From Hypomesus transpacificus (Eukaryota > Chordata > Actinopteri > Osmeriformes > Osmeridae), in assembly GCF_021917145.1 (NCBI RefSeq), contig NC_061062.1, positions 1,988,616 through 2,052,615 of the forward strand: 64,000 nucleotides of DNA, written 5' to 3'. The notes under the pieces are model-generated. The model saw nothing but the letters and a program-made list of their open reading frames with translations, searched no databases and was not told where the DNA came from. Each line of letters begins with the position of its first letter. Within the stretch, counting starts at the first letter, position 1. Position numbers and translations under genes: made by a program. Shown piece after piece: positions 6,701 to 9,700 of the stretch.

Positions 6701-9700
6701 AGACTGATTCACACCTGACATCTTAAGATGTAACATTACGCTCAACTGGGCTAAAGAACTAAACTACACATGTTAAAGGAGACACTTCTCCATGTCAGAA
6801 ACAATCCCCCTGTCTGGATCTGGGTCCACAGGAGGTCAAGCGAGAGGCAGCGAGAGGCTGAGATGAGGCAGCCGGAGAAACACAGGACACTGGATGCACG
6901 GGGGTGAGGCTGGGGGGGGAGGGGAGGCAGGGGGTGAGGCTGGGGGGGAGGCAGGGTGTGAGGCTGGGGGGCCGGGGGGACGTACGTTGTTCTTCTTCCT
7001 GTGGAGCTCCAGAGAGTCTCTCAGCTCCTCCAGGTCAGCCTGCAGGCCAGACACCTGCTTCTCCCTCTCCGCCAACCTGGGAGGTGGGGCAAGACGACGT
7101 CAGGAAACTGCCAATACCCCCAGAGGGACAGTAAAACAAGGTGAGCAAAACAAGTTCTGGGAGATGATCCAGTACTCACGCAATCAGCATCTCTGAGGTG
7201 GGAGCTGCTGTCTGGGACTCCTGCTTTGGGGTCAAAGGCAGAACAAACAAATGTGTCATGTCATTTTTCTCTTATCCTGATATGATGTTGAACAGTGAAG
7301 CCTCTGTTCATTACCTGTTGCTGCTGCAGCTGCAGTTGAAGCTGCTGTTGTAGCTGCTCTTCCTTGTCGCTCATCTCCCTGGCTCTGCCCTCCAGCTCCG
7401 CAGCTCTGCCCTCCAGCTCTGCCTGCAGACTCTGCACCTCCTGCTCCCTGGATGCCAGCCTGCAGCAGAGGAGAAGCAAGGTTCACGTCTCACAACTTGG
7501 GGACGGAGGGGGGTCGGTGTCTGGGTAGGAAGGGGATGCTGGTGTGGGGGCGGAGGTCTGTGTGTGTGGTAGGACTCACTGGGCCTGCAGTTCCAGGTCT
7601 CTGGAGGAGGTGGAGCTGGTCTCTTCAGCCTGCTGCTGTTTCAGCTGCTCAGCCTCTGACTGCAGGGCTGCAACTTGCTTCTCTAGGGCCTGGACACACA
7701 CACACACAGTCATACACTCCTTCGGACAGCACAAAAACCGAATTCCTCGATTTCGTTCGAGTACATTGTTCACAATCCAAACATGTCAGTGAAGCTGGGA
7801 GCTCCATCCAGCAGGGGGAGTCTTGGTGCGCTGGAGCCTGGAAGGGAACACACCTCTACGGCCTTCTGCCTGGTGGAGCTGCTGTCCAGGGCTGTCTGGA
7901 GGCTGTCCTCCAGCACCTGGATCTGATCTTCCCTCTCCTGCATCCTTAAACACAACACCACACGGTTAGCCCTCATCCTTAAACACAACACCACACGGTT
8001 AGCCCTCATCCTTAAACACAACACCACACGGTTAGCCCTCATCCTTAAACACAACACCACACGGTTAGCCCTCATCCTTAAACACAACACCACACGGTTA
8101 GCCCTCATCCTTAAACACAACACCACACGGTTAGCCCTCATCCTTAAACACAACACCACACGGTTAGCCCTCATCCTTAAAGACAACACCACACGGTTAG
8201 CCCTCATCCTTAAACACAACACCACACGGTTAGCCCTCATCCTTAAACACAACACCACACGGTCAGCCCTCATCCTTAAACACAACACCACACGGTTAGC
8301 CCTCATCCTTAAACACAACACCACACGGTTAGCCCTCATCCTTAAACACAACACCACACAGTTAGCCCTCATCCTTTAACACCACACGGTTAGCCCTCAT
8401 CCTTAAACACAGCACGGTTAGCCCTCATCCTTAAACACAACACCACAAGGTTAGCCCTCATCCTTAAACACAACACCACACGGTTAGCCCTCATCCTTAA
8501 ACACAACACCACAAGGTTAGCCCTCATCCTTAAACACCACACGGTTAGCCCTCATCCTTAAACACAACACCACACGGTTAGCCCTCATCCTTAAACACCA
8601 CACGGTTAGCCCTCATCCTTAAACACAACAAGGTTAGCCCTCATCCTTAAACACAACACCACACGGTTAGCCCTCATCCTTAAACACAACACCACACGGT
8701 TAGCCCTCATCCTTAAACACAACACCACACGGTTAGCCCTCATCCTTAAACACAACACCACACGGTCAGCCCTCATCCTTAAACACAACACCACACGGTT
8801 AGCCCTCATCCTTAAACACAACACCACACGGTTAGCCCTCATCCTTAAACACAACACCACACGATTAGCCCTCATCCTTAAACACAACACCACACTCTTA
8901 GCCCTCATCCTTAAACACAACACCACACTCTTATCCCTCATCCTTAAACACAACACCACACTATTAGCCCTCATCCTTAAACACAACACCACACGGTTAG
9001 CCCTCATCCTTAAACACCACACTCTTAGCCCTCATCCTTAAACACAACACCACACTATTAGCCCTCATCCTTAAACACAACGCCACACTCTTAGCCCTCA
9101 TCCTTAAATACAACACCACACAATCACTCCTCTAGCTCGTCACACAAAACCCCAAAGTTTTAGCTACAATAAAAAGCTGTGTGCTCCTGTTCAGGGACTT
9201 ACTTGCTCTGCAACTCGTCCACGATGGAGTCGGAGGAGGACTGGAGGAGGAGAAGGGGACAGAAGTGAGCGGGAAGCAGAGCTACATCACTGCAAGGTCA
9301 GAGGTCAGGAACACAGCTCTCCTACCTGTTCAGGTATATGGAGCCTCAAAGCCTCCAGTTCTTGTTTCAGAGCCTCGCTCTCCACCCTCACAGCCTGCAA
9401 CAACACAGAGCACTTTCAAGCTCTCGGTTCAGGGAGATAAATTCACCACCGTGTCTGCAGACAGCTGATCTCAGTAAGGATTTGCTGCAGCGTGGACGCT
9501 TTGTGACAGTCTGATTGGCAGCCGCAGCTATCCCTTCCCTCTGCTTGGCCAATCCGACGCTCCTGCTCACCTTTAGCTCCTCCTCCTTGTTGGCCACCTC
9601 GATCAGGCCGGCCTTCAGCAGGTCCTCCACAGTCTTGATGTTCTCCTCTCGCTCCTGGACGCTGTGGGGGGAGAGGCATGGGGATGACGCAGGGAGAAAC

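Follow-up and report, generated by a model that had tools for sequence, protein, structure and literature searches.

In the delta smelt Hypomesus transpacificus, most of intron 18 of the kinectin gene ktn1 is occupied by a minisatellite that is anchored on, and includes, the 3' splice site of coding exon 19. The window in which it lies is the whole stretch of DNA analysed here, 64,000 nucleotides of contig NC_061062.1, and all positions below refer to it. That the array overlaps the boundary is confirmed. The reading favoured here, with a probability of about 0.77, is that of a boundary-anchored vertebrate 'mirage' minisatellite in which splicing takes place mainly at 7944, the upstream copies of the acceptor being decoys used rarely or never. 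No description of an array at a kinectin splice site was found in the open-licence literature searched.

The gene lies on the minus strand of the window, where the gene model comprises 35 coding exons, from 15538 to 709, that read as one open frame of 1261 codons. All 1261 residues of the model protein are identical to record P0001, 'kinectin isoform X2 [Hypomesus transpacificus]', a predicted isoform and the one sequence examined of its five-member cluster. The identity of the gene, which an earlier sequence-only reading had taken to be ktn1, is therefore borne out, and a gene other than kinectin is ruled out by the match of the entire model. The same reading had placed exon 19 by its length, and this placement holds: it is the 19th coding exon, it agrees in length and phase with coding exons 13, 16 and 23, and it fits into the 38/91/69-nt pattern that the exons follow. 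Since P0001 is identical to the model protein, the annotated model of the delta smelt uses acceptor 7944, as had been proposed. An alternative acceptor for exon 19 is ruled out by this identity together with the shared length and phase. Coding exon 25 of the same gene is followed by a GC donor (CAG/gcaagc, 4514-4515, minus strand) and hence by a GC-AG intron. Elsewhere in the window are open reading frames that, from their translations, look as if they encode a VCPKMT-type methyltransferase (28539-29096), an Arf6 GTPase-like protein (41477-42031), a Tc1-like transposase (44422-45305) and non-LTR reverse transcriptase fragments (60442-61761). The features of the exon 18-19 region are as follows:

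9203 to 9240, minus strand: ktn1 coding exon 18, 38 nt (gene model).
7945 to 9202, minus strand: ktn1 intron 18, 1258 nt, with one donor, CAA/gtaagt, and its first base at 9202 (gene model).
7941 to 9121, minus strand: 33-nt minisatellite of 36.7 copies with the gene-strand unit GATGAGGGCTAACCGTGTGGTGTTGTGTTTAAG (TRF).
7945 to 7977, minus strand: last unit of the array, with the AAG acceptor (7947-7945), CTAAC (7969-7965) and its branch-like A (putative branch role; spacing taken from the letters).
7854 to 7944, minus strand: ktn1 coding exon 19, 91 nt, phase 2, MQEREDQIQVLEDSLQTALDSSSTRQKAVE (35-exon model, protein identical to P0001).
7927 to 7939, minus strand: 13-nt purine run AGGAGAGGGAAGA in exon 19, a candidate exonic enhancer.

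The array was delimited by TRF with a period of 33 and 92% matches, and the first four nucleotides of exon 19 (GATG) lie inside it, in agreement with the earlier claim that the repeat includes the intron/exon edge. When a 23-nt core was searched with up to three mismatches, 31 matches were obtained in the window, all of them within the array, and none in each of 100 shuffles. On the gene (minus) strand AAG/GATG occurs at 37 sites. The repeated acceptor module put at about 35 copies is thus real, and its exact count is 36 upstream copies plus 7944. Every unit cut at AAG/GATG measures either 33 nt (30 of 36) or 28 nt (6 of 36), which means that AAG/GATG has been retained at every junction. Five of the 28-nt units (8645-8618, 8617-8590, 8556-8529, 8429-8402 and 8401-8374) fall where such variants had been reported, near 8.37-8.64 kb, and a sixth, missed at that point, is found at 9036-9009. 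The commonest unit accounts for 18 of the 36, and 15 types of unit occur intermixed through the array. The branch-like motif reads CTAAC in 27 units, CTAAT in three, CTAAG in three, CTGAC in two and ATAAG in one, and the branch-like A of CTAAC sits 21 nt from the AG. The repeated CTAAC/AG module is accordingly well founded, with an AG in every unit and an exact CTAAC in three quarters of them; the weak UG-rich tract, too, recurs in most units. Two of the features by which a 'mirage' is recognised are hence present, namely a repeat across an intron/exon boundary, here with an overlap of 4 nt, and splice signals inside the units.

The order of the units along the array is not uniform. On the unit map, units other than the commonest number 11 among the first 18 and 7 among the last 18. 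The last seven (exon-proximal) units are identical to each other (P=0.004 if the order were random), and none of the six frame-breaking 28-nt units falls among the last 13 (P=0.05). Either of the last two patterns could hint at constraint, and homogenisation could explain both. In the 33-nt units five of the seven variable positions are positions 9-15, outside the AG; this is no test of purifying selection, since the units are non-independent and are cut at AAG/GATG by definition. Regarding its origin, the unit shows no similarity beyond chance to the 5' flank (P=0.10) or to the start of exon 19 (P=0.12), a result that does not bear out in detail the duplication route proposed earlier; the array may have arisen by slippage or unequal exchange.

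The acceptor on which the array is anchored is weak. With a vertebrate matrix 7944 scores 1.34 bits, and only two of the 33 other ktn1 acceptors are lower; with a leave-one-out matrix built from ktn1 it scores 3.39, and 4 of 33 are lower. It is the sole AAG among the 34 ktn1 acceptors, and 198 of 475 decoy AGs in the other ktn1 introns reach or exceed its score. With the vertebrate matrix, three upstream copies surpass it, at 8175 (3.69, in frame), 8617 (3.02) and 9102 (1.51), and an AG at 9163, outside the array and 39 nt from the donor, scores 6.99; these values count against a choice of 7944 by strength alone. The context of the nearest copies is the same as that of 7944: at the five nearest upstream acceptors the preceding intron is identical over 204, 171, 138, 105 and 72 nt, and so are the 4 nt downstream. 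For 7944 and 7977 this identity extends over 204 intronic nucleotides, and the sequences diverge from exon position +5. Local intron sequence alone therefore cannot select 7944 over 7977. Splicing would mostly take place at 7944 because only exon 19 supplies the 13-nt purine tract (no purine run in the array exceeds 6 nt) and a downstream donor. In such a mechanism the purine tract at 7939-7927 would mark the last acceptor, and exon definition, in which it pairs with the donor that follows exon 19 after 7854, would favour it, so that intron 18 would be spliced mainly to the last copy. An extra AG is found at positions 5-6 of every unit. By the AG-exclusion principle, this would confine the branch point for 7944 to the last unit. 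Within the array, GT sites match the donor consensus at 5 of 9 positions at most, which disfavours units as cassette exons, though the real ktn1 donors (n=34) have 5 to 8 matches and the two weakest of them also have 5.

What use of the upstream copies would produce was examined by joining exon 18 in silico to each of the 36 upstream acceptors. The outcome divides the array into two segments:

7978 to 8373, minus strand: 12 units of 33 nt that make up, with the last unit, the 13 nearest the exon, whose acceptors run from 7977 to 8373; full-length protein plus n x 11 residues.
8374 to 9102, minus strand: 23 upstream units, including all six 28-nt units; any acceptor used here leads to a stop inside the array.

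The sequence-only reading had expected splicing to the n-th copy to insert n x 11 residues in frame, except across the 28-bp variants near 8.37-8.64 kb. This stands for the 13 nearest acceptors, which yield full-length kinectin with 11 to 143 additional residues, and the 11-residue open frame of the unit (MRANRVVLCLR) is as predicted; it fails for the other 23 (8401 to 9102), even at the five with an offset divisible by three. Full-length protein hence results from 13 of the 36 upstream acceptors; in a regulated alternative-acceptor system the frame would be kept at all of them. Given the non-triplet (5-nt) deletions in 6 of the 36 units, the array as a whole shows no constraint on frame.

These outcomes bear on the idea that the array works as a variable-number alternative-acceptor system, with several of the first 13 acceptors in use and from none to 13 inserts of the MRANRVVLCLR type varying by individual and tissue. 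It is consistent with the full-length open frames from 13 acceptors, with nearest acceptors whose intronic context equals that of 7944, and with the higher score of the in-frame copy at 8175. In human ABCA7, moreover, the splice site of a neighbouring VNTR unit can be used (PMC5954066). The 5-nt deletions in six units argue against it, as does the unit peptide itself, which is hydrophobic and basic (mean hydropathy +0.47, net charge +3) as opposed to the 30 residues of exon 19 (-0.99 and -4). Furthermore, 11 residues are no multiple of the heptad, unlike what would be expected of a heptad-compatible coding VNTR.

The comparison with other smelts, made at the protein level, can be read both ways on this point. 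Osmerus kinectins (P0002-P0009) tolerate repeat expansions in the same coiled coil, in the form of coding VNTRs of 7 and 14 residues that correspond to coding exons 21 and 23 of ktn1. The 7-residue repeat (ELEGRA core) is present in two copies in Hypomesus, three in seven O. mordax isoforms and six in O. eperlanus. The 14-residue repeat (EREKQVSGLQADL core) has one copy in Hypomesus, one in three and three in four of the predicted O. mordax isoforms, and four in O. eperlanus. These expansions are heptad multiples of mixed charge, unlike the unit of the exon 19 array. In Hypomesus the DNA of the 14-residue unit contains CAG/GT, and the difference between one and three copies in O. mordax could reflect an allelic difference in length, or else the splicing of 84 nt in the manner of an intron.

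The insert itself was sought among known proteins. The protein search scored only the 7978 candidates sharing most words and gave 2123 matches, and VVLCL, RANRV, LCLRM and MRANR occur in none of the 120 proteins listed. A query bearing four units returned nine matches, all of them smelt kinectins already among those found, none of which carries the insert and all of which have the insert-free junction VDELQSKMQERED across exons 18-19. The junction pattern could be parsed in 51 of the 120 listed proteins (69 remained unparsed), and no insert was found in these 51 (42 with three and 9 with five intervening residues), bearing in mind that predicted isoforms need not list rare junctions. This indirect evidence says that the upstream acceptors would have little or no use. 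An isoform system is unlikely as a major use of the array, and the variable-number alternative-acceptor system as a whole is considered improbable. With splicing mainly at 7944, the upstream copies would act as decoys, and their rare use would lead to hydrophobic 11-residue inserts from the first 13 or to premature stops from the other 23.

A different role for the array, as a modulator of splicing or expression, is doubtful as well. CELF and TDP-43 prefer UG-rich RNA, and every unit is UG-rich and lies beside a weak acceptor; the units might recruit CELF or TDP-43-like proteins, or the decoys might titrate U2AF, and copy number would then tune the definition of exon 19 or lower the mRNA through the premature stops that follow from 23 of the 36 acceptors. 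The length of the ABCA7 VNTR does affect splicing (PMC5954066). Against a modulator of this kind, UG-rich acceptors occur in ktn1 where there is no minisatellite, for example at coding exons 7, 10 and 20, and the RNA structure of a 198-nt piece is not unusual (z -1.56; 14 of 200 shuffles were at least as stable), a value on which a special RNA structure was rejected. A long shot is the combination of both ideas into a heritable splice-length dial, in which allele copy number and tissue would set an 11-residue isoform ladder and copies past the thirteenth would act as a premature-stop brake. If it were true, one minisatellite would tune how long an ER coiled-coil anchor is and how much of it is made.

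It is highly improbable that the copy number and homogeneity of the array are partly a product of assembly, the true alleles being shorter, longer or mixed. Long near-identical arrays are prone to assembly error, and the seven identical exon-proximal units fit with such an origin; the interspersion of 15 unit types and the lack of any N in the window speak against it. A further point against it is that in the congener Hypomesus nipponensis tandem repeats are reported to make up 14.61% of the genome, compared to 3.26% and 5.83% in two other fish (PMC12083275); none of these points is a test of copy number. The reported share also makes a large intronic array unsurprising in this lineage.

Other arrays are found in the introns of the same gene. 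A second one of 1.2 kb, at 10518-11724, consists of 55.6 copies of a 22-nt unit and fills intron 12 (1272 nt); it occupies the equivalent 38-to-91-nt intron position and nearly equals the exon 19 array in total size, with an unrelated unit. Twelve intronic arrays were taken from the TRF rows (period of 10 or more, score of about 80 or more, overlaps merged, neither dinucleotide runs nor weaker rows included). If they were placed at random, one or more of them would touch a splice site with P=0.13. For nine of the 12 a splice site lies no more than 35 nt away, as against 5.0 expected (P=0.0036; threshold-free combination, P=0.0044), which hints that ktn1 arrays lie near splice sites more than by chance; these statistics are exploratory, since the cut-off was set after looking and simple GA/CT-rich runs account for two of the 12.

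The interest of the locus resides in the choice it presents to the splicing machinery. The choice between proximal and distal copies among equal 3' splice sites, and the weight of exon sequence in it, are usually studied by engineered duplications, and in experiments of this type the 5'-proximal copy can win when the exon context is equal, which counts against a preference for 7944. This makes the ktn1 locus informative. Intron 18 constitutes a natural experiment in which a single donor faces 36 extra copies of the acceptor. The five nearest of these share 72-204 nt of intron with 7944 and differ only in what follows. The locus also illustrates that a splice signal can be engulfed by an intronic minisatellite with no visible damage to the gene model.

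Several known systems resemble this array in part. The closest are the amphioxus 'mirage' minisatellites of Adh3 and of the globins BflGb6 and BflGb9, described as tandem duplications over an intron-exon boundary with splice signals in many units (PMC3087553). The BflGb6 repeat takes in the 3' end of an intron and the start of exon 2, with units of 150-160 bp present six and three times in two haplotypes, and the Adh3 units, as cited in the same source, measure 10-72 bp. There, Adh3 data and globin RT-PCR suggest that regular splicing is undisturbed, with cryptic sites noted. The ktn1 array shares with them the boundary-spanning repeat and the splice signals in its units, and differs in being from a teleost, in its 33-nt units, in its 36 upstream copies, in including only 4 exonic nucleotides and in the in-frame insert predicted for 13 copies. 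The VNTR in intron 18 of human ABCA7 is likewise a minisatellite that contains an exon's splice site: its first two bases belong to the exon 18 donor, and some transcripts have been observed to retain a single 25-bp unit (PMC5954066). ABCA7 is nevertheless a donor-side case with an out-of-frame 25-bp unit and a known length polymorphism, whereas the ktn1 array is on the acceptor side, has a unit of 33 nt that is in frame and is seen in one assembly. NAGNAG and other tandem acceptors also pair one donor with several nearby frame-keeping acceptors (13 of 36 in ktn1). NAGNAG isoforms differ by three bases (PMC3250501), whereas in ktn1 the array is 36-fold and most of its units contain a branch-like motif. 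Finally, models in which tandem duplication of splice motifs gives rise to introns (cited in PMC3087553; PMC4974935) multiply splice signals within a gene in the same manner; unlike in these models, no new intron is found at ktn1, where the GT sites of the array match the donor consensus no better than the two weakest real donors. Judged from its sequence, the ktn1 locus is thus best described as an acceptor-side mirage whose copies outnumber those of the globin cases and whose unit keeps the frame.
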